Part shown: piece after piece, positions 3,746 to 49,033 of the stretch
How positions within the stretch are numbered: position 1 is the stretch's first letter
Layout of the letters: each line of letters opens with the position of its first letter
NCBI RefSeq assembly: GCF_035610345.1
Contig: NZ_CP141214.1
Location: forward strand, 124,001 to 188,000
Origin: Sinorhizobium meliloti
Lineage (GTDB): Bacteria > Pseudomonadota > Alphaproteobacteria > Rhizobiales > Rhizobiaceae
Direction: 5' to 3'
Length of the DNA: 64,000 nt
The notes under the pieces: generated by a model
The model's database searches: none
Seen by the model: only the letters and a program-made list of their open reading frames with translations
What the model was told of the DNA's origin: nothing
Program-made: the position numbers and the translations under genes

Positions 3746-6700
3746 TTCAAGGAGATCCCCTGGCTCTTTTTCTGGCACAGGCTTTCTGCCTGCTTCAACG
3801 CCTCGGTCGTGCGCTCATGCGCGGCCAGCTGCTGCACCGTCCGCATCGAATTCCACGCCGATTGCACTTCGGCCTTCTGCCCGGCCGTCATTGCACCCGT
3901 GATCGCATTGAAGGTCTGTCCGCTGGAGTCCTTGGCAGCCAGAGGAAGGAAGGTCCGTTCGCCGAAACGCTCCGCTACAGCCTTGGCGAAACCCTCGAAC
4001 TCGGCCTTCACTTGTCTGTCGGCAAGCGCATATTCGAGACCGGCCGGCAGGTCGTTCCGGTCGATCGCATCGCGCACACGTTCGAGGGTCTCCTTTGCGT
4101 TTGCCGAGAGCGCCGGAATATCGATCGACATCTTCAGACGAACGGCGCGTTCCTCGACCTCAAACTTCCGTTCGGCTTCCGCCCGTTGGCGCAGATAGCG
4201 TTCCAGATTTCGGGCAAGAGCCGGCGCGTTGGTCAGCGCCGTTGACCGCGCCTGCTTGTCTGTGCCGCTTGCCAGTAGACCGGTCTTGCCTTTCAACGCG
4301 CCGAAGCTTTCCGGTTGGTCGCGGATCCTGCTGATGGTGGCATCCGCCACCGCTCCATCCTTCAGCAGGGCGTCGACATTGATTGCTTTAAACGCCCTTT
4401 CCGGCTGCGCATAGACGAGGTGGAAACGGGTCGAAACCTCCTCCCACTGCTTCTTCAAGCCGCGATCGGCTGCGACCTTGTCCTCGACCGCCTGGTCGAC
4501 TGACTTTGCGAAGGTGGTAATGCCGGAAACCATAGGTTTTACCTTCCTGACAGTGTCCTGGAGTGGAGATTTCACAGAGCTGATGATGAGCCCGAGCTTG
4601 GCGGCAACCGCGGCGAGGCGCGCACCAAGATCGATGAGCTTTTGCTTTTGCCCGACCGTCCATTCCAGCCGATCGCGAAGGAGCGTCCGGGCCACGTTGA
4701 CGAGATTGAGGCCGCGAGCTTCGGCGAAGCAAAGGGTTTGCCGGGAAAAACTGCCTTTCTCGTAGTCGAGCGTCGTTTCCTTGGTGTTCCTGCGCGAGAG
4801 GACTGGGATCAAGCCGCCGGCTTTAGCGAAGGATCTTCGGCCGTAATAGACGGCCAGGTCCTCACGATGACGAGTCATGGCGACATAGGTGAGGTGGCGA
4901 TCAAGAGAAAGAGAACCCAGCACCTTGACCCGATCCACTGTGGCGCCCTGGCTCTTGTGGATCGTCGTGGCATAGCCATAATCGAGGTTGTTGTAGAAGC
5001 GCTGTTCGACCAGCACCTGGCGCGCAAGCTCGCCATCGCCGACCTTCGCTATGATGCGGCCCGGCCCGGTCTCAACGACCTTGGCCAACATGCCATTCTT
5101 GACACCGAGTGAGCCCTCGTTCTTGAGGAACACGATCTGGTCGCCGATCGCGAAGTTGCGATCGCCATCCGCCGTCTTGAACACGGTTCCTTCATCGAGA
5201 ACGCCGCGTTCGATGAGCTTGATGCGCGCCATCTGGTTCAGCATGCGAACGTCCCTGCGCAAATGGGCAAGGATCAGGGACGTCTTCGCCGGATCGTAAT
5301 CGCGGTCCCAGGCGGCGATGAGGTTGTCGACGGCGTCGGCCTTCAGATCCCATCCGATCACCTTGCCATTGGTACGGTAGGCGGCGACTGCCCTGCCGAC
5401 GTTGCCACGCGCCAGATCAAGCGAGGCATCGCGCATCCATTGCTGGCGCTGGCGATAGATGGTTTCGAGTTCGGCATAGCCGATGCGATCGGCAATCGCG
5501 CGAAACGCGGCGCCTGCTTCGATGGGTTGAAGCTGTTCGGGATCGCCGATGAGAACGAGCTTGGCACCGGCCTTCGTTACGGCTTCGACGAACAGCGCCA
5601 TCTGCCGCGACGACACCATGCCGGCTTCGTCCAGGACGAAGACCGTCTTGCTATCGAGCTGGTTACGCCCCCCGTGCCAGCGCAGTTCCCAGGACGACAG
5701 CGTGCGAGAGACGATCCCGGCTTCCTTCTCAAGGCCCTCGGCCGCCTTGCCGGCAAGTGCGCCGCCGACAACCCGGTAGCCTGCCGCCTCCCAGGCTTCG
5801 CGCGCAGCCTTCATCATCGTCGTCTTGCCGGCGCCGGCGCGGCCGATCACCGCGGCAATCCGCTCGGATCCCGATGCATGCTCGATCGCCGTTTTCTGCT
5901 CGTCCGAAAGACGCTCATGACGCGCAAATGTCGCCGCCAGCACCGCGTCGCGAACGCCATGCGAAGTCCGCTGAGACAGCCAGACCGCTCGATTGGCCAT
6001 CTCGGCTTCGAGACGAATCATGTCGCGGGACGTGTACTTGACCGGCACTCGGATACCGGTGGCAAAGTCGATCCGCTCGCGCTCCAGGCGGAGCGTGTCG
6101 GGATGCAGGATGATCCGAACCATAAGGCTTTGGAACAGGGCGGAATCGTCGATGTAACGATGCAAGACCTTGGCGACATCACGCTCGTCGAACACGCTTT
6201 TCTCACGGGTGATCAGGTCGATGACGAGCTTCGGATTGCGGTCGATCCGTCTCGCATTTTCCGCTTTACGCGCATCCTGCAGTTCGATGAGCTCGAGCTC
6301 GACCGGCTTCGTGGCAACATCGGTTTTCCGCTCGATCGCCCTGGTGCCGACGCCAAGGTGGATGGTCGGTTCGAGATCGATCCCTTGCTTTTCGAAGGAC
6401 CGTCCATCGACGCGAAGGTCGAGACCGGCCAGCGCCAGATGCCGGTTCTGGCAAGCAAACCATCCGTCGCGAAACGCGTTGAAATCGTCGATACCTCCAG
6501 CCCAGAGCTTATAGACGATCTTGCCTGCATCGTTGCGGATCGGATTGCCGTCCGGCCCGAGCACGGCAACCTTCTTGGCGCCGAAACCGTCTTCGGTCAG
6601 CGGCCGCAACGTCGTCATCAAATGAACGTGCGGATTGCCAGGGGCGTCGTGATAGACCCAGTCGACCACCATGCCCTTCGATGTAATGTGGCGCTCGACA

Positions 6701-7822: not shown

Positions 7823-9791
7823 GATCATCCTTTTCATCGCGCCTGTCGCGCTGATGTTCCTCGTCACGATCGGATTGACCGGGATCGAACACTGGCTTTC
7901 GGGGTTTGGAAAGTCGGAGGCTGCTCGGCAGACGCTCGGCCGGGCGGGCATTGCCCTGCCTTATGTCTCAGCGGCCGCCATCGGCATCGTTCTCCTGTTC
8001 GCGAGCGCCGGCGCGATCAGGATCAAGACGGCCGGATGGGGCGTCGTTGCCGGTGGTATAGCGACGATCGCTGTCGCCATCGCTCGCGAGGCGATCAGGC
8101 TGTCGACATTCGGCAACCAGGTTCCGGTCGGCAAGTCCATCCTCTCCTATGTCGATCCCGCGACGCTGATGGGAGCGGCGGCGGCGGCGATATCTGCCTG
8201 CTTCGCCCTACGTGTCGCGCTCGTCGGCAATGCGGCCTTCGCCAGCGCCGAGCCGAAGCGCATTCGCGGCAAGCGGGCGCTGCATGGCGAGGCCGACTGG
8301 ATGAAAATGCAGGACGCGGAAAAACTCTTTGCTGACAAGGGCGGCATCGTCATTGGCGAGCGCTACCGTGTCGACAGGGACAGCACAGCGGGGCGCTCGT
8401 TCCGTGCCGATGACCCGGAAACGTGGGGCGCTGGCGGCAAGTCGCCGCTACTGTGTTTCGACGGTTCGTTCGGATCGACGCACGGTATCGTCTTCGCCGG
8501 ATCGGGCGGCTTCAAGACGACATCGGTGACGATCCCGACGGCACTCAAATGGAGTGGATCCCTTATCGTTCTCGATCCGTCGAACGAGCTGGCGCCGATG
8601 GTTTCAGCCCACAGAACGGGCTCGAACCGAGACTTGTTCGTCCTCGACCCGAAGAGGCCGGAGACTGGCTTCAATGCGCTCGACTGGATCGGACAATTCG
8701 GCGGCACCAAGGAAGAGGATATCGCCTCCGTCGCTTCATGGATCATGAGCGACAGCGGCGGCGCGCGTGGTGTTCGCGACGACTTCTTCCGCGCCTCGGC
8801 CTTGCAATTGCTGACGGCGATGATCGCTGACGTTTGTCTCTCCGGCCATACGGAGAAAGAGAGCCAGACGCTTCGCCAAGTTCGCGCCAATCTCTCCGAA
8901 CCGGAGCCGCAGTTGCGCCAACGCCTGCAGGAAATCTACGACAATTCGGATTCGGATTTCGTCAAGGAAAACGTCGCGGCTTTCGTGAACATGACACCCG
9001 AAACATTCTCCGGCGTCTACGCCAATGCGATCAAGGAAACCCATTGGCTGTCCTATCCGAACTATGCCGCGCTTGTTTCGGGCAAGACGTTTTCGACGGG
9101 GGATCTTGCCGAGGGAAACACCGACGCGTTCATCAACATCGATCTCAAGACCTTGGAGACGCATGCGGGCTTGGCCCGCGTCATCATCGGCTCGTTTCTC
9201 AACGGAATTTACAATCGCGATGGCTCGATGAAGGGCAGAGCACTCTTCCTTCTCGATGAGGTAGCGCGGCTTGGCTATATGAGGATCCTGGAAACCGCGC
9301 GCGATGCCGGTCGCAAATATGGCATCACGCTCGTCATGATCTACCAATCGATCGGGCAGATGCGCGAAACCTATGGCGGTCGCGACGCCGCCAGCAAATG
9401 ATTCGAGAGTACGAGCTGGATCTCGTTTGCGGCGATCAACGATCCGGAAACGGCGGACTATATCTCACGCCGTTGCGGCATGACGACAGTCGAGATCGAC
9501 CAGGTCAGCCGCAGTTCGCAAATGAAGGGATCATCGCGGACGCGATCGAAACAGTTGGCCGCACGACCGTTGATCCAGCCGCACGAGGTGCTTCGCATGC
9601 GCGCCGATGAGCAGATCGTCTTCACGGCCGGGAACGCGCCGCTCAGATGCGGGCGCGCGATCTGGTTTCGGCGTGACGACATGAAAGCCTGCATCGGAAC
9701 GAACAGGTTTCATACGCTCGGAAACCCACCCGATGCACTTCGGGTCGAGCCGGCGCGCAGCGCAGCGAGCAAGGCTGAACCAGAACAATGA
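7815..9791 (+). pseudogene. traG: Coupling protein traG interrupted by an in-frame TGA
   Basis: TraG is the VirD4-like ATPase that couples the relaxosome to the type IV secretion channel. The frame from ATG 7815 encodes membrane segments in the first 140 residues, then Walker A (GSGGFKTTS) and Walker B (ALFLLDEVARLGYM), and reaches a TGA at 9399-9401 after GGRDAASK. The same frame continues without a shift as FESTSWISFAAINDPETADY and on through the normal TraG C-terminus (DQVSRS, ARPLIQPHEVLRMRADEQIVF, CGRAIWFRRDDMK) to the stop at 9789-9791. The TGA sits where I recall family members having Trp (SKWFES), so a single TGG to TGA change or a sequencing error explains it. Uninterrupted, the protein would be 658 residues, the usual length. 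As read, the product is 528 residues and lacks a conserved part of the ATPase domain. Confidence 0.9.
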
Positions 9792-10334
9792 AGAGTATCG
9801 GAGAAATCAGCGTGAGCGCCGCCCAAAGGGGGGGATTTCGGGAATTCTCGTCGTGCGAGGGCGGGAACAGCGCAGCCGCAGGAGCTTCAACATAGTGGCC
9901 CGAAGGGGAGGCGGGACCGACTGCGCCCCGCATCTCGCACTCCGCCTAAAGCGCCTTGTTCGTAAACGCAGATGAAACCGAAGCCGAGGTAGGTTGAGGC
10001 GAACAGGAGAGGACCGAGCCGCCTGCGCAATCACTGACCGCGCGATCCTCTGCGCCGTGATCATCATTGCTACGGGAGGCTCGCTTGCCCTCGGGGGCGC
10101 TGGCAACCTCTCCGGAACTGCTAACTGCGGCTAGGACACCGACACCAGACTCGTTATCGACCGTGTTTTTGATCTGCGGCGCCGATCGCCATGTGAACTG
10201 CGCCCCGACGGCCATACGTCTGGTTTGGTGGGGAGAAAATCGCGGATATCGGTCAGACATTTCCGGTCCTGTACGGCACCAGAAGAGCCGGAAGCGGCTC
10301 GATGCCCGCTTGCGGTTTCTCAATTCGGCCGGTT
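9792..10334. other. Gap without a recognised gene
   Basis: No frame in this 540-base stretch gives a protein-like sequence. The minus-strand frames over 9807-10106 and 9946-10767 are Arg/Pro/Ser-rich in the way of GC-rich shadows. The area lies at the edge of the transfer block, where plasmids often hold decayed DNA. Confidence 0.4.
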
Positions 10335-37448: not shown

Positions 37449-38005
37449 TCCGCACGCCCGCCTGAACCCTCGATGCGCCAGCGCATGCGAAAGTGCGTCT
37501 CGCTTTCCCCGTCCTCGATAAAACCCAAGCGACGATAGAGCCGCCGCCCCCCAGAATTGTCACGGGCGACATGGAGCGAGATGCGGGATGCGCGCGTCTC
37601 GCTGGCATTCGACTGCAGCCTCGTCAGGAGAGCCGTGGCAATGCCCCGGTTTCTGAAGGATGGCAGCAGGCTGATGTCGAGAATGTGCCAGGTGTCGATG
37701 TTTCGATCGATATAAAGGCGACCGGCCGGCGCAAGGCCTTCCTGAATCAGGAGAAAATCCGCCCTGGGGAAGGCGGCGAGATAATGGCGGTGCTGGAGAT
37801 CGAACTGGCTGTCCAGGAACTCCTGCCGTTCATCCGAAGTCCAGGGAATCGCGGCCAGTTCATCGAGCCTAAGCGTTCGATAAAGCTCTCTCAGGAAAGG
37901 AATGTCGGAAGACGAGGCGGGGCGCACCCCCATTTGCGCCAATGCTTCCTTCCCCCAGTCGCTGGCTGGGAAATCCGGGAGAGGGAAGCCCCTGCCCATC
38001 GTCAT
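37439..38005 (-). CDS. GNAT-family N-acetyltransferase
   Basis: The 188-residue product has the acetyl-CoA-binding motif DISLLPSFRNRGIATALLTRL (motif A) and LHVARDNSGGRRLYRRLGF (motif B). This is a single-domain GNAT. Its start at 38005 overlaps the end of the first collar gene (38002), so it belongs to that operon. It may modify a cluster product or a cell component; the target is unknown. Confidence 0.88.
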   Translation of the reverse strand: MTMGRGFPLPDFPASDWGKEALAQMGVRPASSSDIPFLRELYRTLRLDELAAIPWTSDERQEFLDSQFDLQHRHYLAAFPRADFLLIQEGLAPAGRLYIDRNIDTWHILDISLLPSFRNRGIATALLTRLQSNASETRASRISLHVARDNSGGRRLYRRLGFIEDGESETHFRMRWRIEGSGGRADQL

Positions 38006-38538
38006 CCGCCAAACGAAGGGTACTCGCCTGCAAGCGCGATGCTGAAGTTGACGGCAAGGTAGGGCTGCTGGTTCTCGTGGGCCTGGCTGCCGCCCGCCGG
38101 CCCGATCATGGCGGGCGCGAATTGCGCGTCCGGTTCCGCGCCGCTCGCAAATGGCGAGCTCGACGTCGGCGAAGCGAGCGAATTACCCGTGCTTGGCGAG
38201 GCGGCCCGTTTGCTCGGGTCATTCTGGTTATAGACCGTGAAGGCATGTGTGTGGGACGGCATCTGCGTCAGGGTCAGCGTGACGGCTGCCTCTCCGAAGG
38301 TGTCACCTGCGACACGCGGGGTCAGCCCGATGCCGGTGCCCTGGCTGCAGGCGGCGCGTGCGGCGAAGTTCGGAAATTGGAAGGTCGTGTGGCCGTCGCC
38401 GCCGTACTCCGTTCCGAGCAAGCTGAACAGTGCCGAGTTCTGCTGAATCGGCAACAACGCGCCATTGCAGAAGGCCCAGCCGCGCGGCGCGAAATTAAAG
38501 CCGAAAAGCTGGATTTCGCCGATGAATGGTGTGGTCAT
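38002..38538 (-). CDS. Phage tail-collar / Mdp-type protein 1
   Basis: The 178-residue product has the tail-collar domain (PF07484) of microcystin-dependent-protein type: FIGEIQLFGFNFAPRGWAFC, LFSLLGTEYGGDGHTTFQFPN, then TLTQMPSHTHAF and the end QPYLAVNFSIALAGEYPS. No signal peptide and no other tail genes are near. It is the last of three different collar genes in one minus-strand operon, followed by GNAT. Confidence 0.9.
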   Translation of the reverse strand: MTTPFIGEIQLFGFNFAPRGWAFCNGALLPIQQNSALFSLLGTEYGGDGHTTFQFPNFAARAACSQGTGIGLTPRVAGDTFGEAAVTLTLTQMPSHTHAFTVYNQNDPSKRAASPSTGNSLASPTSSSPFASGAEPDAQFAPAMIGPAGGSQAHENQQPYLAVNFSIALAGEYPSFGG

Positions 38539-38589: not shown

Positions 38590-39120
38590 TCAACTCGGGC
38601 TTGGGTAAATCCCGGCCCAGGCGATACAGAATTGCGCGGCAAGCGTCGGCATCGTGTTATCATGCGGAGAGGTATAGCCGGCCGCGCCCGTCGAGGCGGG
38701 CGAGGTGACGAACGGAGACGATCCGCTGGTATCGGTGACGTAGAGCGTGTCGCCCGTAAGCGCGCCGAGCTCGACCGACGTCGAGATCGAGGATTCGGTT
38801 GCCGGCGATGTCGTCGCATTCATGGAGTGCTCATGCGAAGGTATCTGGCTTGGCAGCAGCGTGACGTTTTCCGAGCCGCCGATCTCGCCGATCATTCGCT
38901 CGGTCAGACCCGGCCCAGTACCGTAGTGCAAGGGCACGCGCCCGGCGAGATTGGGGACGGCAAAGGTTGTCACGCCGTCGCCGCCGTAAATGGTTCCGAT
39001 GAGCGTAAACAGGTCCTCGTAGACCGAGATCGACCACTTGGATCCATCGCAAGGCAGCCAGCCATTGGGGACCTTTGGGAAGCCGAACAGACGGATTTCT
39101 CCGACGAAGGGTTCACTCAT
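38590..39120 (-). CDS. Phage tail-collar / Mdp-type protein 2
   Basis: From ATG at 39120 the 176-residue product reads FVGEIRLFGFPKVPNGWLPC, LIGTIYGGDGVTTFAVPNLAGR, then LPSQIPSHEHSM and MPTLAAQFCIAWAGIYPSPS. The family is the same as its neighbours but the sequence is clearly different, so the three are paralogues rather than a recent duplication. AGGAGAAG lies 6 nt before the start. The frame is open upstream to 39792, but that part is a shadow of collar gene 3. Confidence 0.88.
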   Translation of the reverse strand: MSEPFVGEIRLFGFPKVPNGWLPCDGSKWSISVYEDLFTLIGTIYGGDGVTTFAVPNLAGRVPLHYGTGPGLTERMIGEIGGSENVTLLPSQIPSHEHSMNATTSPATESSISTSVELGALTGDTLYVTDTSGSSPFVTSPASTGAAGYTSPHDNTMPTLAAQFCIAWAGIYPSPS

Positions 39121-39239
39121 CACCGCTTCTCCTGTTGCCAGAGCGCAATGCGCTCCCATCCGTTCGCGCCACCGCTCTACCTGTTTGTCTTCGCCGCATT
39201 TGTGCGACCACAGGTGATTCCACCTGACTGCAAAATGCT

Positions 39240-39776
39240 TTAGCCTCGCGACGGAAAGATGCCGGCAATCGCGACGCAGAAGTTGATGACGCCATAGGGC
39301 TGCATGTTCGCGTGGGGCTGCCCTCCGCCCGTTGGAGCCACCGTATTGCCGGAAAGCATCACTTGCGGCCCGCTCGCGGGGCCGTAAATATCGGCGGAAT
39401 TCGTGCCGAAGAGATCGTCCGTCGGATTGCGTCCGGTGCCGTTGGCGGATGTGCCGTTTGCCTGATGCGCATGCGTCGGCAGTTGGTCGAGCGAGAGCGT
39501 AACGCTCTCGGATCCGCCGAAATCGCCCAGAACAAAGGGTGTCGGATTCCAGCTCGAATCGGCGGAGGTGCCGATGCCGACGGGGGTGCGCCCCTGCAGG
39601 TTCGGCAATGCGAAACTGGTTGTCCCATTGCCGCCATAGGCGGTTCCAAACAGCGAGAAGAGGGCGCTGTTCTGGCTGATGGGTAGCAAGCCGCCGTTTG
39701 CCAGTGCAAAGCCGCGTGGCGCGAATTCGAATCCTGCCATCATGATCTGCCCCAGAAAAACCTCGGCCATGGTCAT
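39240..39776 (-). CDS. Phage tail-collar / Mdp-type protein 3
   Basis: The 178-residue product has FLGQIMMAGFEFAPRGFALA, LFSLFGTAYGGNGTTSFALPNLQGR, LDQLPTHAHQANG and MQPYGVINFCVAIAGIFPS. It is the first gene of the collar operon, with its promoter in 39780-40010, divergent from the giant autotransporter. Mdp-type proteins were described as fibre-like or surface proteins; the cellular role is open. Confidence 0.9.
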   Translation of the reverse strand: MTMAEVFLGQIMMAGFEFAPRGFALANGGLLPISQNSALFSLFGTAYGGNGTTSFALPNLQGRTPVGIGTSADSSWNPTPFVLGDFGGSESVTLSLDQLPTHAHQANGTSANGTGRNPTDDLFGTNSADIYGPASGPQVMLSGNTVAPTGGGQPHANMQPYGVINFCVAIAGIFPSRG

Positions 39777-40013: not shown

Positions 40014-43000
40014 ATGCATCACACCGGCTTGCCGCACCGGGCCACCGGACGCCGCATGATCGTCGCCGTCTGGACGGCACTTCTGGTCTTGGGGTTCATC
40101 GTCTTTCTGGCTCACGGGCCCGCCGCGGCTGCGCCATCGCCGAACTGCGGTCCGTTCAATGTCAGCGTCACCCATGGCGGTTCGGTCGTCATCGATGCCA
40201 GCATGTGTGACGGGCCGGACGATTTTGGGATCGGTCTCTTGAAGACCCCTCCTTCTCACGGCACGGTCACGATAGACACGATAGCGACGCAATCGGTCAC
40301 CTATACGCATTTCGGCGGCAGCGACACGGCGACGAGCGACAGCTTCGTCTTCGACGACGGCCTAGGAAATGACGTTCAAGTCAACGTCACAATCGGCGCC
40401 GCCCCGACGATCACCATCAGCCCGCCGACGCTCCCATCAGCGACGGTGGCCAGTGCCTATAGCGAGACGATTTCTGCCAGCGGCGGCACGGCGCCCTATA
40501 CCTTCGCGGTTACTGCCGGAGCGCTTCCCTCTGGCCTGAGCCTGTCCTCGGCCGGCATCTTAACCGGTACGCCGACGGCGGGTGGAACGTTCAACTTTAC
40601 GGTGACCGCGGCGGATGCCGGGTCCGTTTCCGGAGCGCAGGCCTACACGCTGACGGTCGCTCCGCCAGCGATGACATTGCCGGCAACGGCCCTTGCAGAC
40701 GGAACCGTAGGAACCGCCTATTCCGGATCGCTCAATTCTGCCACGGGGGGGGCCGCGCCCTATACTTATGCGCTGACGAGCGGAGCGCTGCCGACCGGAT
40801 TGGCGCTTGGCGCCGCCAACGGACAAATCACCGGCACGCCGACCTCGCCGGGAACGTTCAACTTCACCGTCACGGCAACGGACAGCAGCACGGGCACGGG
40901 GCCGTACACGGCTTCCAACGCCTATGCGATTACCATCGCCGATGCGATCCCCGTAGCAAATCCGGTCTTTGCGATCGTTGCCTATGGCAGCGGCGCTAAC
41001 CCGATCACCCTCAACATAACCGGGGGCACGGCGACATCCGTGTCCATCGCCACGGCACCTCTACACGGCACGGCGATCGCCTCGGGGACCAGCATCACCT
41101 ATCAGCCCGAAGCGGGCTATGGCGGAGCAGACAGCTTTACCTATACAGCGAGCAACGGCACCGGAACCTCGGCGCCGGCAACGGTCAGCATCACGGTTTC
41201 CGACCCGACCCTTTTGATCACCGCCGGCGGCTCGTTAACCGCCCAGATCGGCACGGCTTACAGCCAGACATTCAGCGCTTCCGGTGGGGCGGCACCCTAC
41301 AGCATTGGCGTCACCGGCTTGCCAGCCGGCCTGGCGGTAACGGGAACCTCCACCACGAGCGTCACGGTCTCCGGCACGCCGAGCGAGAGCGGCAGCTTTG
41401 GCCTGACCGTGACCGCCACCGACAGCAGTACGGGAACCGGCCCGTTCAGCGCGGCGCAGCCATTTACCCTCACAGTTTCTGCCCCGACGATCGCCATCTC
41501 GCCATCCTCGGGCACCCTGAACCTCGCTTATGCGACGACGTTCACCCAGACCTTTGGCGCCAACGGCGGTACCGCTCCCTACAGATTCTCGCTGACCGGC
41601 ACTCTGCCCACCGGCCTGTCCTTCGACACAGCGACGGCGACGCTTAGCGGCACGCCGGTCCAGACAGGTACCTTTTCTATTTCGGTGACGGCCGAAGACA
41701 GCTCATCCGGAACCGGTGGGCCGTTCTCGGATACCGCGAACTACGTGCTGCAGGTCGGTGCGCCAACGATCGCCATCGATCCTGCGACGCTGCCGAATGC
41801 GACCGCGGGCACCGCTTACAGCGCGACATTGTCGGCATCCGGCGGCGTCGGACCCTACGGTTTCGCGCCGACGGCAGGGACATTGCCGGCCGGGCTGTCG
41901 CTCTCTTCGGCCGGCGTGCTCTCAGGCGTGCCGACGGAGTCGGGAACATTCGGCCTTACCGTGACGGCAACCGACGCGAATGGACAAACGGGGGCGAGAG
42001 CCTACAGCCTGACGGTCGGCACCGGCGGGCTCAGCATTTCGCCGACGACGCTGCCCGCGGCCACTGCGGGTGTTGCCTATAGCCAGGCGCTGACGGCGAG
42101 CGGCGGTGTCGCGCCCTATAGCTTCAGCGTCACCGGCGGCGCCCTGCCGGCAGGCGTGAGCCTGAGCGCCTCCGGCCTGCTCTCGGGAACCCCTACGTCC
42201 GCAGGGTCCTTCAACTTCGACGTGACCCTAACAGACGCGACCGGCGGCACGCCGTCGACGACGACGGCATCCTATACGCTCGCGGTCTCCAGTCCGACCA
42301 TCACCATTACACCCGCGACGATCGCGAACGGCGTCGCCGGCCACTCCTACAGCCAGTCGCTGACGGCGAGCGGCGGCACTGCACCCTACACCCTCAGCAT
42401 CGGCGCCGGGGCCTTGCCCGCGGGGCTATCTCTGGCGGCTGGCGGGGAGATATCCGGAACGCCGACAACGGCGGGTAGCTACAGCTTCACTGTCGTTGCG
42501 ACGGACGCGCAGAATTTCACCGGGTCGGCCGCCTACAGCGTAACCGTCGCCGATGCAGTACCGGTTGCCAATCCCGACTCGGCAACCGCCGTCGCAGGTC
42601 AATCGGCGACGATCGATGTAACCGCCAATGACGTGGGGGCGATCTCGTCCATCGAGATCGTCCAGGATCCGGCGAATGGCAGCGCCGCCTTGAGCGGCAA
42701 TTCGATCGTCTATACCTCGGAGGCGTCGTTCGGCGGGACGGATACGCTCACCTACCGGGCGCTTGGGCCAGCGGGCAGTTCGTCGGCCGCGACCGTCACG
42801 ATCGAGGTCAATCCGCGTCCGATTCCGCTATCGCGGCGCATCGATGTCGTGATGGGCAGTACGGTCACCATCGATCTTGCGGCCGGTGCCAGCGGAGGGC
42901 CGTTCACCGGCGCCTCGTTGATTTCCCTGTCACCGCCGGATGCCGGAAGCGCGTCGCTATCCGGTCAGCAATTGACCTTTACCGCCGACCCGGAATTCGA

Positions 43001-44231
43001 GGGCGCGGCAACGGCGACATTCACGCTCAGCAATGCCTTCGCAACGTCCGAGCCGACGGCAATCTATCTCGATGTGTCCGCCAGGCCCGATCCGACGCTC
43101 GATGCCGAGGTGATGGGCATATTGAACGCGCAAACGGCGGCGACGCGCCGCTTTGCAACGACGCAGATCGCAAATTTCCATCAGCGGCTCGAGGCGCTGC
43201 ACGAAGCCGGCGGGCGAGGGGGTGAACCTGCGGACGGCGTCAGCTTCTTCCAGGGCATTGCCCTTTCCTTCGCGGATGCCTGCCGTGGTCGTGGAACTAC
43301 ACTCAGGCCCGAAGAATGCGGAGGAGGGCAGGTGACGCCGGGGAACGCTCTGTTCCAGGCCGCGCTCGCCGATGAGGCGGCCGGTGGATCTGCGCAGCCA
43401 AAAGCAACGAAGGTGACGATCTGGACCGGCGGTTCGATCAATGTCGGTGATCGTGATGGCGGGGATGGCTTCGAGTTCGAGACGACGGGTTTGAGCGGCG
43501 GCGTCGATTACCGGTTTAATCGCGATCTGGCGATCGGCGTCGGCCTCGGCTATGGCCATGACGACAGCGACGTCGGCAACAACGGAAGCCGCAGCAAGGG
43601 GGACAGCTACACCGCTGCGATCTACGGCAGCTACCTGCCCGCAGAGAACTTCTTCATCGATGGCTTGCTTGGATATCAGTGGCTGTCATTCGACTCCAAG
43701 AGATATGTGACATCGACCGGGGACTTCGCATTTGGAGAGCGGGATGGCAAGCAATGGTTCGCCTCGGTTTCGGCCGGCGGGCTTTTCGACGTCCAGGCTC
43801 TGCACCTTTCGCCCTATGCCCGGCTCGACGTCGCACGCGCCACGCTCGACGCCTTTACCGAAAGGGGAGATCCCTCGACGGCCCTCCGTTATGGCGAACA
43901 GGACATCACCACAACGACAGGCAGTCTGGGAGTGACGATGCGTTACGACCAGCCGACGAGCTTCGGCATCGTCTCGCCGGAACTCCGTCTCGAGTACCAG
44001 CATGACTTCGGGGGGGACAGCGCGGTCACGATGAACTACGCCGATATCTTCAGCGGTCCCACTTACCGCAGTTTCATCGATGGTCTCGATCGCGACCGCT
44101 TCATCGTCGGCGTGGGCGCCAACATTAAAACCTTGCAGGACTTCGCGATCCGCGTCGAATATCGGGGCATGCTCGGTATCGAAGGCGATACAGACCACGG
44201 TGTGCTTCTCAACGTGTCGAAGCAGTACTGA
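40014..44231 (+). CDS. Giant Ig-repeat autotransporter, 1405 residues
   Basis: The product has an N-terminal membrane/signal segment (about residues 15-40, ending GPAAAAPSP), then an extracellular passenger. I count about seven He_PIG/Ig-like repeats between residues 140 and 840, recognisable by SGGTAPY...GALPSGLSL...GTPT.GTF.FTVTATD. Cadherin-like modules (PVANP...YGGADSFTYTASN) stand before, between and after them. From about residue 1050 a linker helix leads to an autotransporter barrel (VDYRFNRDLAIGVGLGYGHDDSD through VGANIKTLQDFAIRVEYRG). The last residue is Tyr. A role as a surface adhesin is likely. GGGGGAAAAG precedes the start. It is divergent from the collar operon. Confidence 0.9.
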   Translation: MHHTGLPHRATGRRMIVAVWTALLVLGFIVFLAHGPAAAAPSPNCGPFNVSVTHGGSVVIDASMCDGPDDFGIGLLKTPPSHGTVTIDTIATQSVTYTHFGGSDTATSDSFVFDDGLGNDVQVNVTIGAAPTITISPPTLPSATVASAYSETISASGGTAPYTFAVTAGALPSGLSLSSAGILTGTPTAGGTFNFTVTAADAGSVSGAQAYTLTVAPPAMTLPATALADGTVGTAYSGSLNSATGGAAPYTYALTSGALPTGLALGAANGQITGTPTSPGTFNFTVTATDSSTGTGPYTASNAYAITIADAIPVANPVFAIVAYGSGANPITLNITGGTATSVSIATAPLHGTAIASGTSITYQPEAGYGGADSFTYTASNGTGTSAPATVSITVSDPTLLITAGGSLTAQIGTAYSQTFSASGGAAPYSIGVTGLPAGLAVTGTSTTSVTVSGTPSESGSFGLTVTATDSSTGTGPFSAAQPFTLTVSAPTIAISPSSGTLNLAYATTFTQTFGANGGTAPYRFSLTGTLPTGLSFDTATATLSGTPVQTGTFSISVTAEDSSSGTGGPFSDTANYVLQVGAPTIAIDPATLPNATAGTAYSATLSASGGVGPYGFAPTAGTLPAGLSLSSAGVLSGVPTESGTFGLTVTATDANGQTGARAYSLTVGTGGLSISPTTLPAATAGVAYSQALTASGGVAPYSFSVTGGALPAGVSLSASGLLSGTPTSAGSFNFDVTLTDATGGTPSTTTASYTLAVSSPTITITPATIANGVAGHSYSQSLTASGGTAPYTLSIGAGALPAGLSLAAGGEISGTPTTAGSYSFTVVATDAQNFTGSAAYSVTVADAVPVANPDSATAVAGQSATIDVTANDVGAISSIEIVQDPANGSAALSGNSIVYTSEASFGGTDTLTYRALGPAGSSSAATVTIEVNPRPIPLSRRIDVVMGSTVTIDLAAGASGGPFTGASLISLSPPDAGSASLSGQQLTFTADPEFEGAATATFTLSNAFATSEPTAIYLDVSARPDPTLDAEVMGILNAQTAATRRFATTQIANFHQRLEALHEAGGRGGEPADGVSFFQGIALSFADACRGRGTTLRPEECGGGQVTPGNALFQAALADEAAGGSAQPKATKVTIWTGGSINVGDRDGGDGFEFETTGLSGGVDYRFNRDLAIGVGLGYGHDDSDVGNNGSRSKGDSYTAAIYGSYLPAENFFIDGLLGYQWLSFDSKRYVTSTGDFAFGERDGKQWFASVSAGGLFDVQALHLSPYARLDVARATLDAFTERGDPSTALRYGEQDITTTTGSLGVTMRYDQPTSFGIVSPELRLEYQHDFGGDSAVTMNYADIFSGPTYRSFIDGLDRDRFIVGVGANIKTLQDFAIRVEYRGMLGIEGDTDHGVLLNVSKQY

Positions 44232-44252: not shown

Positions 44253-44663
44253 CCTTGCCGTGCAGACAGCGGCAACTCAAACGGCCTTCTTGCCTACTGG
44301 GGGCTGTGAGCCCCGTGACATGTCAGATTGAGAAGACCCGGCCTGCGCTTTTGGAAAACTCTCCGAACAAAAATAACAAGGAAAAGCGCTGCAATCCATA
44401 GTTTTGTAGGGATGCGAATTTACTCGACTTGCGGTACTGTCCGCGTGCTGGGCGAATTTAATGCTCCTTAATCGCGAACTCCATTTCCGGTCGTCGACAT
44501 CCATGTCGTGGCCCGTGAACTGCGTATGCGATCACATCTAGATATCGCCAGTAAACATCGCTTGCTCTGCAGTAATCTCAGGGAGGACTGTGGTTGGCTT
44601 AGGCGTGCGACAAGCACCCATGCAGTGTGATTATCATTCTTCATCACCTCAGGGAGGATATCC
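44253..44663. promoter_or_regulatory. Gap, presumed promoter of the 44.7-48 kb gene set
   Basis: This 410-base region is AT-richer than its surroundings and has no protein-like frame. It should contain the promoter of the next gene, whose ribosome site (AGGGAGG) is at its right end. No operator was recognised. Confidence 0.35.
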
Positions 44664-45125
44664 ATGTCTTATAACAGCAGCGCGCAAATCTATGTGACAA
44701 ACAATACCGGCGGAAACGCCATTATCGCGTTTTCGCATGAGTATAGCGACGACGGGCCGCAAATTTGGAATCAACCAAATACCGTTATTGCGCCTGGGCA
44801 GAGTGCCGGCCCGCTTGCGGTCGGCTTTAACACCGGTGTCTTCTATACGGGCCGGGATTACTGGTTCTGCGGGATCCAGGTGCTCGATGGACCGAATGCC
44901 GGCTACTATGCCACCGAAGGGTCCCTGGAGGCTCCCTCGAAACAGTGCATGCTCGAGAGCGAAGACAACGGTGCGACGCTGTACTTTTCCGTCACGACCG
45001 AGACCTTCGTGATGACCGAGAATTCCGGATCGTGCAGCACCGGGATGAATGCGGGAAATGCAACGGCCTTGATTGCGCAGCAGGCCAAGAAGGAAGAAAG
45101 GGCAAAGGAACAGAAGGTTGCCTGA
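44664..45125 (+). CDS. Protein resembling the 'up-regulated in daf-2' domain
   Basis: The 153-residue product reads AQIYVTNNTGGNAIIAFSHEYSDD, then IAPGQSAGPLAVGFNTG and TGRDYWFCGIQVLDGPN. This order (NNTG, H-YSD, G-S-PL-V--NTG, GRDYW) resembles the small domain described in nematode daf-2-regulated proteins and some bacteria. The fold is probably an all-beta sandwich. Four cysteines occur in the C-terminal half, and the tail is Lys/Glu-rich. No signal peptide. The strong AGGGAGG site and a following perfect hairpin suggest high expression. The family call is from memory. Confidence 0.68.
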   Translation: MSYNSSAQIYVTNNTGGNAIIAFSHEYSDDGPQIWNQPNTVIAPGQSAGPLAVGFNTGVFYTGRDYWFCGIQVLDGPNAGYYATEGSLEAPSKQCMLESEDNGATLYFSVTTETFVMTENSGSCSTGMNAGNATALIAQQAKKEERAKEQKVA

Positions 45126-45140
45126 GAGCGGCGGCCGAAG

Positions 45141-45176
45141 CAGGAGCGGAGCCGCCGAATGGCGGCTCCGCTCCTG
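45141..45176 (+). terminator. Perfect 16-bp hairpin after the 44.7-kb gene
   Basis: The arms at 45141-45156 (CAGGAGCGGAGCCGCC) and 45161-45176 are exact reverse complements around a GAAT loop, 15 nt after the stop codon. It is the strongest hairpin seen in the window. No T-run follows directly (GATCGATTTA), so it may stop part of transcription or protect the upstream mRNA and uncouple the first gene from the rest. Confidence 0.75.
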
Positions 45177-45225
45177 GATCGATTTACACCGGCCAAGTTT
45201 CTTGCCGAAGGCCGGATCGGCGCCC

Positions 45226-45981
45226 GTGACCTTCAAACAAGTTAAGCCACTTGCGGAACTGGCTCTCGTGCTGTGGGCGCTAGCGGCCGGACCGGTCAGG
45301 GAAAACGAACGAAGTGCGTGGGTCGGCCGAAGCACAAGAAGTCTCGGGACGGCCATGACGGCCCTTGCTGCCCTCCATCCTTGGACGGCCCACGAGCCGA
45401 AAACGGAATGGCTCATGCTTTTCCCGATTTTCGAGCGAACGACCGGCTGCCGGTTCGCAGATCAAGCCGCTCTTCACAGCGCCTTGGCCGCAAGCGGCAA
45501 CTCGCTCAATATCGCCTTCGCCCGCGACATGGCGGGCCTTGAGGATTGCCGACCTGCGGTTCATCGCGAACTCAGTATGCTGATGAGTAACTGGCAACAA
45601 GGTCTGGGCCAGTCGACACTCTACAGGCTCACGCATCTCGTCTTCTTCGCCACGCATTTCGGCAGGAGGAGTGGGTATTGGCCGGCCGAACAGCAGCGCT
45701 TTCTGGCCGATGTTCTCGCGCCTTGCGCCGAGGCACGTCTGGCACGCGGCGACTATGACATCGCCGTCGAGCTCCTCGTCGCGATGGCATGGACCGGACT
45801 TGCACGAACACCGGCTTTCTCAAGCGGCACTCTGTCATTGGCGGAGTTGGCCTTGGTACAGGGCAGCATTCCGACGGACCGGAGTGTGCCACGGGAAGGG
45901 GGAGCATTCGAGCATCGATATCATGCCACACTCATGACTCTCCTGGCCCTTGCGGAAGCGGCCTCGTTCTCCGGAGACTAG
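45226..45981 (+). CDS. Unknown protein, about 251 residues (possibly DUF6895-like)
   Basis: The protein is mostly helical, with PLAELALVLWALAAGPVRENE near the start, then WLMLFPIFERTTGC, ELSMLMSNWQQGLGQSTLYRLTHLVFFATHFGRRSGYW and HRYHATLMTLLALAEAASF. It has His/Glu-rich helices but no catalytic motif I recognise. The pattern reminds me of DUF6895 proteins, but I am not sure. GTG at 45226 is the best start; the frame is open further upstream into the hairpin region. The phosphoesterase gene begins 4 nt after it, so the two are coupled. Confidence 0.65.
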   Translation: MTFKQVKPLAELALVLWALAAGPVRENERSAWVGRSTRSLGTAMTALAALHPWTAHEPKTEWLMLFPIFERTTGCRFADQAALHSALAASGNSLNIAFARDMAGLEDCRPAVHRELSMLMSNWQQGLGQSTLYRLTHLVFFATHFGRRSGYWPAEQQRFLADVLAPCAEARLARGDYDIAVELLVAMAWTGLARTPAFSSGTLSLAELALVQGSIPTDRSVPREGGAFEHRYHATLMTLLALAEAASFSGD

Positions 45982-45985
45982 AAAG

Positions 45986-47461
45986 ATGACAACAGCAATC
46001 ACCAACGTCTTCGTCCTCATTCTTGAGAATCGGTCGCTCGATCACATGCTGGGCTTTTCCGGCATTGTCGGAATGGATGCGGTGACGGGCGATTCCACCT
46101 CTCTCAACGGCTTGAACGGAACGGAGTCCAACAGCTATCAGGGCCAGACCTATACCGTCACGCAGCCGGCGGACGAGACGATGCCCGTGGACCCGGCCCA
46201 CGAGTTCCCCGACGTTGTTGAGCAGCTTTGCGGGCAGGGTGCCTGCTATCAGCCGGGTGGTTCCTATCCTAAAGTCGAAAACACCGGCTTCGTCAGCAAT
46301 TATGCCGTCTCCTATACCGCCGGAGAGGGAGACGCGCCGAACGACTTTGGCGAGATCATGAAGTGCTTCTCGCCAGACCAGTTGCCGGTACTGAATGCTC
46401 TGGCGCGAGCCTTCGCCGTTTGCGACAATTGGTGCGCTTCCATGCCGGGGCCGACGTGGCCCAATCGTTTTTTCGCCTATGCGGCCTCATCTGGCGGGCT
46501 CGACTATAGTCCACCGCTTAGCCAGATCATCGAATGGGACGTCGGTGGCTTCACCTTTCCGAACGGCTCCCTCTTCGATCTCCTCGACCGCAAGTCCGAC
46601 TTTGGATGTCGCATCTTTGCCGGTGACCACTTCCCTATTGCCAAGGCGGTCAGGAACGTCGGAGAGTCCGGCATTACCTCCTTCGACGAATTTGCCGACG
46701 CGCTCGCGAGCTCCAGCTATCCGTGGCTTTTCACCTTGATCGAGCCGAGCTACGGAAACCTCCTCGACGGCACCTATGAGGGTGGTACATCTCAACATCC
46801 GTTGGACGGCGTGACCGCGGGTGAAGCCCTGATCAAGGCGACCTATGAAGCGATCCGCAATTCGCCGTTTTGGGACAGTAGCCTGCTGATCATCACCTGG
46901 GACGAGCACGGCGGCTTCTACGATCACGTTCCGCCGCCAGCGGCCGTGGCTCCGGACGACACGCTGTCCGGCTCCGAATTCAACAGATATGGCTTCACCT
47001 TCGAACGGTATGGCCCTCGCGTCCCGGCCGTGATCGTGTCACCCCTGATCCCCGAGCGGATCATTGATCATCGGCAGTACGATCACGCTTCAATCCCGGC
47101 AACCGTCGAGGTTCTGTTCGCCTTGCCTCCGCTCACGGAACGCGATGCTCGCGCCAACAATCTTACCTCGCTGCTGTCGCTCTCGACGCCGAGAACGGAC
47201 GCGCCGACGACTTTGCCGGAGCCGGCAGCATCACAAACGAAACCGGTGGCGCGGCCACCCCTGCCACCTGGGTCTCCGCCAGATGGAGGCAATCTGCCGG
47301 GCCAGATCTATGTTGCCATGCGTCGGGACGTAGCGCTCTCACCGCCCGCCGCCGAAGCCGAGATCGTGAACCGTTTGAGGTCGATCAGGACGCGCGCCCA
47401 GGCGGCCCAGTATCTCGAGGAGGTGCGGAACAAGATCGAGGCCAGAAGGGCTGCCCTATGA
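45986..47461 (+). CDS. Phosphoesterase family (phospholipase C / acid phosphatase type)
   Basis: The 491-residue product belongs to PF04185: it opens with VFVLILENRSLDHMLGFSG (the metal/nucleophile region E-N-R-S-D-H). It has WPNRFFAYAASSGG, then LIITWDEHGGFYDHVPPPAAV and YGPRVPAVIVSPLIPE. Family members cleave phospholipids or phosphate monoesters. There is no signal peptide, although most relatives are exported. The C-terminus (from about residue 420) is Pro-rich, then charged and helical. It overlaps the next gene as ATGA. Confidence 0.88.
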   Translation: MTTAITNVFVLILENRSLDHMLGFSGIVGMDAVTGDSTSLNGLNGTESNSYQGQTYTVTQPADETMPVDPAHEFPDVVEQLCGQGACYQPGGSYPKVENTGFVSNYAVSYTAGEGDAPNDFGEIMKCFSPDQLPVLNALARAFAVCDNWCASMPGPTWPNRFFAYAASSGGLDYSPPLSQIIEWDVGGFTFPNGSLFDLLDRKSDFGCRIFAGDHFPIAKAVRNVGESGITSFDEFADALASSSYPWLFTLIEPSYGNLLDGTYEGGTSQHPLDGVTAGEALIKATYEAIRNSPFWDSSLLIITWDEHGGFYDHVPPPAAVAPDDTLSGSEFNRYGFTFERYGPRVPAVIVSPLIPERIIDHRQYDHASIPATVEVLFALPPLTERDARANNLTSLLSLSTPRTDAPTTLPEPAASQTKPVARPPLPPGSPPDGGNLPGQIYVAMRRDVALSPPAAEAEIVNRLRSIRTRAQAAQYLEEVRNKIEARRAAL

Positions 47462-47970
47462 AGGGTAACGCATATGGGCAAGAGGTCGAGAAAGCCGTTT
47501 GCGAGCTGCGGCGGCTGCTCGGAGCCGCGGAGGAAATCTCGGCAGAAGCGTTGCTGGGCACCTTCGCCGATCCAGAGGGCCGCGCGGCGATGTACCAGCG
47601 TCGCTCGCTCGGCGAGTTGAGGGCGCATTTCTCGGAGGCGGCGAAGACCGCGTGTCCCTCCTCTCGGGAGGCTATGGCAGCGGCAATTGGCGCATTCTGG
47701 CGCTGGGCGCGTGACGGCTTTGCCGTCGTCAATATCGAGACGTACGAACGACGCCTGGCGGCTTGCCGGTCATGCGACCACTATGTCGCTGCGCCGAACG
47801 ATCTGCTCCATGCGACCGTGAAGCTCGCTACCGCCGACGCTCGCATATGTGACTGTTGCGGATGCTTCATGGAGAAGAAGGCACGACAGGCCAATGCACG
47901 CTGCCCCGTCCGGCATGAAGCGAACCCGGGGCTTAGCCGCTGGGGAGAGCCATTTTCAACCGAGCCATAG
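47458..47970 (+). CDS. Zinc-ribbon-like protein, 170 residues
   Basis: The protein has a helical N-terminal half (residues 1-95) and a cysteine cluster: CRSCDHYV, then ICDCCGCFMEKKARQANARCP. The pattern C-x2-C...C-x-C-C-x-C...C is typical of short zinc-binding proteins encoded with phage- or secretion-related genes. The start overlaps the phosphoesterase stop (ATGA), so it is translated with it, possibly as a partner or chaperone. The family name is not known to me. Confidence 0.65.
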   Translation: MKGNAYGQEVEKAVCELRRLLGAAEEISAEALLGTFADPEGRAAMYQRRSLGELRAHFSEAAKTACPSSREAMAAAIGAFWRWARDGFAVVNIETYERRLAACRSCDHYVAAPNDLLHATVKLATADARICDCCGCFMEKKARQANARCPVRHEANPGLSRWGEPFSTEP

Positions 47971-48270
47971 CGGGCCGGCGGGGTAATTGGGCTGGGGCCG
48001 CTCGCGTAAGCAAGAATGTCTTCGACGTTCATTTAGCAGAGAAGGATCCAAGCCGAACCTCTCCTCCTATGTCTCTCGCGGCGAGGCGCGGCTCCGAACA
48101 CAAGCGTGCATACGATGCTCAGTTGGCGACTTTCACCGCAGCGTCGACCGGCTAATAGAAGTCCGCTCGGGGCCGTTCGTAGTGTCCGGCGGCAAGGGCC
48201 GCAACGGGTCGAACTTTCGCCTCAGTAGACGAGCGGTCGGCGCTTCGAAGCGAAGCGCCGCCCTTGAGTG
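47971..48270. other. Gap before the recombinase gene
   Basis: Convergent genes face each other here. No protein-like frame, strong hairpin or repeat was seen. Confidence 0.3.
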
Positions 48271-48864
48271 CTACAGTTCCACTTGCTCAGAAATGGCTAA
48301 GGCGTCGTCCACCTCTATACCGAGGTATTGCACGGTGCTCTCCAGCTTTTTGTGGCCGAGCAAGAGCGGGACGGCGCGCAGGTTCCCTGTCTTCTTGTAG
48401 AACTGCGCCGCTTTCGTCCTCATCGAGTGCGTGCCGTAGCGCTTCGGATCAAGTCCGATGCTCGACACCCACCGCTCGACGATCCGACCATATTGCCGCG
48501 TCGAAAGATGCGGCTTTGCGTGCACACGGCTGGGGAACAGATAATCCCTTTCACCGAGCCGGCGAAGTCCAATCCAGGCATCGACAGCATCCCGCGTTTG
48601 ATCGGTCAGTTCGAACTGCACTGGTCGGCCTGTTTTCCGTTGGATGATGATCGCCCGCTCGCGAACCCTTCCGGAGATCGCAACATCGGCAACGGAGATC
48701 GCGACGAGATCACAAGCTCGCAATTTGCTGTCGATCGCGAGGTTGAACAGCGCCAGGTCACGCACCGCGCCCGACATTTGGAGGCGGGTTCGGATGGCCC
48801 AGACCTCCTTTGGCTTCAATGGAGGCTTCTGACCGATGATGCGGCCCGAGTTCCAGCTAGACAT
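48271..48864 (-). CDS. Short tyrosine recombinase/integrase
   Basis: The 197-residue product is essentially a catalytic domain: the first Arg in IDSKLRACDLVAI, a Lys in IIIQRKTGRPVQFEL, the H-x-x-R box as THSMRTKAAQ, the H in LLLGHKKLESTVQYL and the Tyr in TVQYLGIEV. The full set R-K-H-R-H-Y is thus present. It lacks the N-terminal core-binding domain of phage integrases, as in many stand-alone rhizobial recombinases. ATG at 48864 (MSSWNSGRIIGQ). It lies beside the 66-bp repeat and recombination-site-like sequences and may act on or mark a mobile boundary. Confidence 0.88.
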   Translation of the reverse strand: MSSWNSGRIIGQKPPLKPKEVWAIRTRLQMSGAVRDLALFNLAIDSKLRACDLVAISVADVAISGRVRERAIIIQRKTGRPVQFELTDQTRDAVDAWIGLRRLGERDYLFPSRVHAKPHLSTRQYGRIVERWVSSIGLDPKRYGTHSMRTKAAQFYKKTGNLRAVPLLLGHKKLESTVQYLGIEVDDALAISEQVEL

Positions 48865-49033
48865 AGCCTCACTCCCAAGAGCCACCCCCCACACCGCAGC
48901 GCTCAACCTTCAGGCAGGTTGAGCGTACTTCGAGAAGCGACTATTTGGGTGGAAGGCAGCCCTTCGCCTTGCTCATCTGAACGAGCAAGTTGCGCCAGTT
49001 GCCGACGCTTGGGGATACCACGTCGAACGTCGT
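48865..49033. other. Intergenic, recombinase upstream region
   Basis: This stretch should hold the recombinase promoter. No gene is seen. Confidence 0.3.

Follow-up and report, generated by a model that had tools for sequence, protein, structure and literature searches.

A cluster of four genes in Sinorhizobium meliloti combines a relative of the worm PUD proteins with a predicted phospholipase C. Our preferred reading, held tentatively and with rather less than even confidence, is that the cluster encodes a mobile, cytoplasmic, two-part phospholipase C in which PUD would serve as the targeting subunit and which would be used in biological conflict. The partnership between PUD and the phospholipase taken by itself we rate higher than this reading as a whole, and the use in conflict we rate lower. 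The unit lies in a stretch of 64,000 nucleotides (nt), referred to here as the window (G000:C3:124001-188000), from a host genome of 6.6 Mb in four contigs. Its features are the following:

Gene 1, 44664..45125, + strand: PUD1_2 protein, predicted beta-sandwich, 153 residues (PF18457, 1.1e-11)
Gene 2, 45118..45981, + strand: DUF6895 protein, 287 residues from a probable start at TTG 45118 (PF21836, 8e-23, for a 251-residue version)
Gene 3, 45986..47461, + strand: leaderless phosphoesterase, predicted to be of the non-specific phospholipase C type, 491 residues (PF04185, 4.6e-55)
Gene 4, 47458..47970, + strand: predicted helical plus zinc-ribbon protein, 170 residues (PHROG 13558, 7e-6)
RNA hairpin, 45141..45176, + strand: perfect stem of 16 base pairs with a 4-nt loop, inside the start of gene 2

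Gene order and its conservation

A first-pass annotation of the window had proposed a four-gene unit, and this is borne out: all four open reading frames lie where it placed them, and the four-gene order is kept in a distant genome. It had also described the last three genes as tightly coupled, which holds (a 4-nt gap, then an ATGA overlap), with the correction that gene 2 overlaps gene 1 as well. A TTG at 45118 is the probable start of gene 2: its homologue P0012 carries an ATG at this place, the match to the DUF6895 profile sets in at 45169, and the alignment to the Indioceanicola protein begins at residue 17. Read from there, gene 2 would share 8 nt with the 3' end of gene 1, and the junctions would be -8, +4 and -4 nt, so that all four genes appear to be coupled. 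A ribosome-binding-like AGGGAGGA, rated strong, precedes the start of gene 1; together with the hairpin it would fit the high expression that the first-pass annotation attributed to this protein. The sequence CTCAGGGAGGA occurs twice upstream of gene 1, about 70 base pairs apart (about 44577-44590 and 44647-44660), and the second copy alone is suitably placed for the gene 1 start. A promoter scan gave no site of the sigma-70 type, against 1.1 expected by chance, and terminator-like sites numbered 6 against 3.7 by chance (standard deviation 1.8), the hairpin at 45141..45176 not being among them.

In Indioceanicola profundi (L058, genome G829) the four genes are present in the same order, with identities of 66, 39, 61 and 45% and junctions of +7, -4 and -4 nt; the PUD protein of this locus is identical to P0025, which is recorded as Indioceanicola profundi. 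Since a distant genome keeps this order, with similarly tight junctions, the four-gene arrangement is more than chance would give. Azospirillum oryzae A2P (L020) and COC8 (L021) carry PUD, phosphoesterase and zinc-ribbon genes with no DUF6895 gene between them. A plasmid locus of KACC 14407 (L037) gave profile scores identical to those of L021, and the two were counted together. At L059 (genome G837, 8249-10186, - strand), PUD1_2 and the phosphoesterase form a natural in-frame fusion within one uninterrupted frame of 645 residues.

Across the five independent PUD loci (the window, L020, L021, L058 and L059), PUD is adjacent to or fused with a phosphoesterase in every case, a zinc ribbon accompanies them in four, and DUF6895 is found in two. 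The worry that the genes might rarely co-occur, which the first-pass annotation had named as an observation that would count against a unit, is thus not realized for PUD with phosphoesterase or for the zinc ribbon; DUF6895 is the member seen in two of the five. Judged from gene content, the core of the unit is PUD plus the predicted phospholipase, with the zinc ribbon a usual member and DUF6895 an optional one, because of the Indioceanicola unit, the Azospirillum units with no DUF6895 in between, and the PUD-phosphoesterase fusion.

Of 33 genomes of the genus searched, the host genome alone has gene 2, and the 32 others lack it. In samples holding one genome per species, PUD1_2 was present in 1 of 385 genomes of the class, a broad PUD profile matched 1 of 397 genomes of the order, and a zinc-ribbon profile matched 3 of 398 genomes of the phylum. 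A narrower PUD profile matched 4 of 82 genomes of the Azospirillum family. A protein search returned 43 PUD proteins including that of the window, which itself occurs on 58 contigs. Viral contigs gave 309 pattern stretches and no PUD relative, a search of plasmid records found no relative of DUF6895, and plasmids frequently carry relatives of gene 3 (114 records). No description of the unit was found in the literature searched, which was mostly outside subscription papers.

The four proteins

The identities first assigned to three of the proteins (daf-2-like, phosphoesterase and zinc ribbon) agree with the profile searches, in which PF18457 and PF04185 score above cut-off, and with the cysteine-rich gene 4 having six invariant cysteines. 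The PF04185 match of gene 3 covers residues 5-381 and spans profile positions 1-356, and the closest solved structure is Arabidopsis NPC4 (8hav, 7e-52). In the available text of the NPC4 study, mutating E23, N24, D76, H79, T158, H264, D299 or E300 lowered activity (PMC9837106). Our alignment places all eight residues in gene 3, as E14, N15, D69, H72, T157, H271, D306 and E307. Gene 3 is likely a phospholipid-cleaving phospholipase C that acts inside the cell. It resembles NPC4 in the phosphoesterase domain and its complete set of catalytic residues, and both proteins continue past the aligned part (about residue 414); unlike NPC4, it is encoded by a bacterium, in an operon that also supplies PUD and zinc-ribbon partners.

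The lack of an export signal noted in the first-pass annotation is upheld, since none is visible when the N-termini are read by eye and the catalytic ENRS motif of the phosphoesterase begins at residue 14, which leaves no room for one. The ENxS motif stands at residue 14 in seven of the nine sequences compared (L037 repeats L021), the other two being the L059 fusion and a Burkholderia protein. In Burkholderia cenocepacia (L047:6167-6448), the phosphoesterase is followed by a separate frame of 93 residues that looks, by eye, like the helical C-terminal tail of gene 3. In Paraburkholderia sabiae (L048:5001-6346), the gene 3 relative is divided into two frames, 5001-5429 and 5423-6346.

The PF18457 match of gene 1, above cut-off, extends over profile positions 3-67 of 170 only. 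Searched as a single sequence, gene 1 reaches only 0.22 against the crystal chains of Caenorhabditis elegans PUD-1/PUD-2 (4jde); a profile of 19 sequences, mostly metagenomic and including gene 1 itself, finds the two chains at 3.6e-9, over positions 7-126, and at 9.2e-9. Because this profile finds both chains, gene 1 is assigned the beta-sandwich of the worm PUD proteins. PUD-1 and PUD-2 pair as a heterodimer. The available text of the 2013 structure paper leaves their function open (PMC3683130), and no later assignment was found in the literature searched, going by its listings. Judged by the profile, gene 1 shares membership of the PUD1_2 family with the worm proteins along almost the whole chain; unlike the worm pair, there is a single PUD gene here, tied to a phospholipase gene.

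The hairpin lies directly 3' of the gene 1 stop codon, where the folding energy over 70 nt is -47 kcal/mol (z -5.6), and this place is the most stable of the 706 70-nt segments across the operon. The stretches that follow PUD elsewhere also fold better than shuffled sequences (z -3.8 in L020, -4.1 in L021 and -3.9 in L058), and among the 70-nt operon segments this place ranks first of 546 in L020 and first of 536 in L021. Because the stem has no T tract, we read the hairpin as a device for raising PUD; its position suggests that PUD is raised over the downstream genes and so would be made in excess.

No Pfam family matches gene 4 above cut-off, and the PHROG 13558 match covers the cysteine-rich end only. 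Six cysteines (C103, C106, C131, C134, C136 and C149) are invariant in all 17 aligned sequences, gene 4 included, as are W83, G87, R99, G135, K141 and W162. An AlphaFold2 model built from 12 sequences (mean predicted local distance difference test score, pLDDT, 85.6; predicted template modeling score, pTM, 0.72) has helices from residue 3 to 104, followed by the ribbon. A search of solved structures with the gene 4 profile gave no usable match. When genome contigs were scanned with the gene 4 sequence alone, the 34 stretches returned held no relatives; scanning with the alignment gave 4 loci out of 74 stretches.

The zinc-ribbon survey covers 13 loci besides the window, with L037 merged with L021 and the partner in L041 left out. 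The gene directly upstream of the zinc ribbon is the phosphoesterase in L020, L021 and L058. Upstream genes at other loci match Pfam families above cut-off in L043 (Big_5), L044 (Hint_2) and L045 (Peptidase_M48) and match Big_5 below cut-off only in L023 and L040; those in L042, L052 and L053 matched no family. In our reading by eye, the upstream proteins of L023, L040, L043, L052 and L053 would also carry Hint, for which Pfam gives a match in L044 only. A recurring pair, in which a protein of 468-718 residues is followed by a helical zinc-ribbon protein, is seen in L023, L040, L043, L044, L045, L052 and L053, the similarity among the larger proteins being judged partly by eye, and several of these loci have SpvB/TcaC, RHS or LamG genes. 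The cyanobacterial relative (L022) has no upstream partner on that strand and no neighbor of toxin-delivery type.

Several of these relatives lie in recognizable surroundings. In Burkholderia pyrrocinia and Mycetohabitans, the gene 4 relative sits between a protein of 569 or 602 residues and an SpvB/TcaC gene, and in Paenibacillus it follows a Hint-domain protein. On one Streptomyces canus plasmid a baseplate J gene precedes it at a distance of four genes and an AHH-domain gene comes immediately after it, with none of the eight other neighboring genes above the Pfam cut-off; on another Streptomyces canus plasmid it is preceded by an M48 peptidase. In G486 the relative is one gene from an RHS-repeat gene, and in G677 a LamG gene is found three genes upstream of it. 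Shorter relatives were found in 13 viral loci, several of them among apparent tail genes (frames read by eye). In L025-L036, small zinc-ribbon proteins with the cysteine pattern of gene 4 stand amid tail-like genes in several of the viral contigs.

Gene 2 matches PF21836 at 81.7 bits against a cut-off of 23.8; this score, like the PADLOC result given below, was obtained with the shorter version of the protein. The motif YxLTHxxF and residues D214, E218 and Y268 are invariant in all nine DUF6895 sequences aligned. The AlphaFold2 model is all-helical and of low confidence (mean pLDDT 65.7, best at about residues 140-240), and searches of solved structures with the gene 2 sequence and profile gave no usable match. 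Going by the title of a 2026 study (10.1021/acscatal.5c08590), the DUF6895 family is reportedly an epimerase of lasso peptides. Gene 2 shares the Pfam family of that enzyme; it differs in that the gene upstream of it encodes a folded protein of 153 residues and not a lasso precursor. All five other DUF6895 loci of the class that score above cut-off have a short co-directional frame directly upstream, at gaps of 14 to 128 nt; three matches below cut-off were left out, and the count has no chance control. The frames are:

Short frames upstream of DUF6895: L014:10494-10796, L016:10502-10798, L017:9244-9480, L015:9000-9485, L018:10562-10798

Three of these five short proteins contain repeats such as LFSSGL, MFTTSC and LFSSGS. 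The frames resemble peptide precursors and possibly represent an unrecognized peptide family with DUF6895 as its modifying enzyme, and they fit a role of DUF6895 in peptide modification. In the window unit PUD occupies the place of the upstream peptide and may therefore be the substrate of DUF6895. The more specific idea that its tail is the substrate is weakened because the Indioceanicola PUD has no tail. A role of gene 2 as an immunity protein was considered and dropped, as nothing supports it and the Azospirillum units lack gene 2.

Explanations for the unit

On our preferred reading, gene 3 would encode a leaderless, cytoplasmic NPC4-type phospholipase C that forms one complex with PUD, and PUD, made in excess, would probably bind a membrane or other target and bring the enzyme there. 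The zinc-ribbon protein of gene 4 would be an accessory to the enzyme, serving its maturation, docking or restraint, and gene 2 would supply an optional enzyme for peptide modification, with PUD perhaps as its substrate. As a mobile conflict cassette, the unit would cleave lipid either in a competitor after release or in its own phage-infected cell. Phospholipid attack was among the functions first proposed for the unit, and this idea is strengthened by the conserved order, the natural PUD-phosphoesterase fusion and the presence of all NPC4 catalytic residues, the activity itself being a prediction from sequence. A bolder form, in which PUD is the targeting subunit of an NPC-type phospholipase C serving as a mobile cytoplasmic weapon or infection-triggered defense, with stereochemical tuning by DUF6895 in some lineages, we consider improbable as a whole.

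Several observations weigh against the preferred reading. Around the gene 3 relatives of Bradyrhizobium and Burkholderia (46-62% identity), the 11-13 kb examined contain neither PUD nor a zinc ribbon, so the enzyme can act alone, and the 20 kb surrounding the L059 fusion yielded neither a zinc ribbon nor DUF6895. The last active-site pattern is unmatched in that fusion and in the Burkholderia protein. The hairpin after PUD ranks only 19 of 676 in Indioceanicola, and those of L020 and L021 are not independent because the two are close relatives. None of the four unit proteins matches any PADLOC defense model, and the matches listed include no genome in which the two flanks enclose an empty site.

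An alternative that we judge unlikely is that the phospholipase is the cargo of a contractile or Tc-like injection device, with gene 4 as its loading adaptor. The surroundings of the gene 4 relatives speak for it: directly before SpvB/TcaC in Burkholderia pyrrocinia and Mycetohabitans, in the baseplate J and AHH context of Streptomyces canus, one gene from the RHS repeats of G486, and, in shorter form, amid phage tail genes. Some of these neighborhoods resemble loci of the extracellular contractile injection system (eCIS) and Tc-like kind (PMC8213781); unlike them, the unit sits in a host genome with no detected sheath, SpvB or VipB, and the window's unit has no delivery gene. SpvB was found in none of the five genomes searched (the search was positive in 1 of 14 control genomes), Phage_sheath_1 in G417 and G837 only (3 of 14 controls positive), and VipB of the type VI secretion system in G417, G418 and G837 only (1 of 14 controls positive). 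G000 and G829, the two hosts of the full four-gene unit, show none of the three, and injection is therefore not supported for this unit. The Streptomyces canus neighbors, unrecognized by Pfam, leave the injection-system nature of that locus unproved. The main text of the eCIS survey, in the form available, mentions neither phospholipase, phosphoesterase, daf-2, PF18457 nor PF04185 (PMC8213781). The effector role suggested in the first-pass annotation thus draws indirect support from the neighbors of gene 4 relatives elsewhere and is opposed by the host genome; as to its effector-immunity version, we found no sign that any of the genes confers immunity to another.

The unit might instead recycle phospholipid under phosphate limitation, with the neighboring genes as regulators, an explanation we regard as improbable and, taken alone, less likely than use in conflict. 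The wider family includes acid phosphatases (the TIGR03397 and PC_PLC models match gene 3, far below their cut-offs), relatives of gene 3 are common on plasmids, and those of Bradyrhizobium do without PUD or zinc ribbon nearby. Against this, gene 2 in the genus and PUD in the order are rare for housekeeping genes, and scavenging needs neither a conserved, coupled unit nor a PUD fusion. Quite improbable, in our estimate, is a peptide-modification unit in which DUF6895 epimerises part of PUD, PUD is the product of the unit, and the phospholipase serves in release or self-resistance. The reported epimerase activity of the family and the short frames upstream of the other DUF6895 genes, whose place PUD takes in the window, favor it; the uncontrolled count of those frames weakens it, as does the absence of the lysine-rich PUD tail in Indioceanicola, which has DUF6895. 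The Azospirillum unit, moreover, has no DUF6895, and PF21836 was found in neither of the two Azospirillum genomes by a search that was positive in no control.

The operon and the natural fusion, by tying PUD to a lipid-cutting enzyme, point to a directly testable function for the PUD family. If the unit is a conflict system, it would add a class of leaderless NPC-type phospholipase C with a zinc-ribbon partner, and the relatives of that partner extend into phage and toxin-delivery loci.

Flanking DNA and mobility

Two further features border the unit:

Candidate left edge of a strain-specific stretch, 44290..44312, no strand: putative end of DNA common to two relatives
Tyrosine recombinase gene, 48271..48906, - strand: right neighbor of the unit (PF00589, 2.4e-19)

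The left-flank match ends at 44289 in G003 (99%) and at 44312 in G018 (90%), and neither shares the unit. In G003 the break coincides with an apparent transposase gene, as judged by reading, and may therefore be the edge of the transposase element itself. Recombinase DNA around 48197-48915 has many matches across the genus, among the matches listed. We infer that the unit is mobile because the 32 further genomes of the genus lack gene 2 and the unit adjoins a repeated tyrosine recombinase; the missing empty site counts against this.

G003 and G018 both keep the DNA from 38000 to about 44290 but lack the four-gene unit, and the upstream autotransporter was for this reason dropped as a candidate member. 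That gene (40014-44231, + strand) encodes a protein of 1405 residues with putative Ig repeats and stands beside three phage tail collar-domain genes, at 38002-38538, approximately 38590-39127, and 39240-39776 (- strand).

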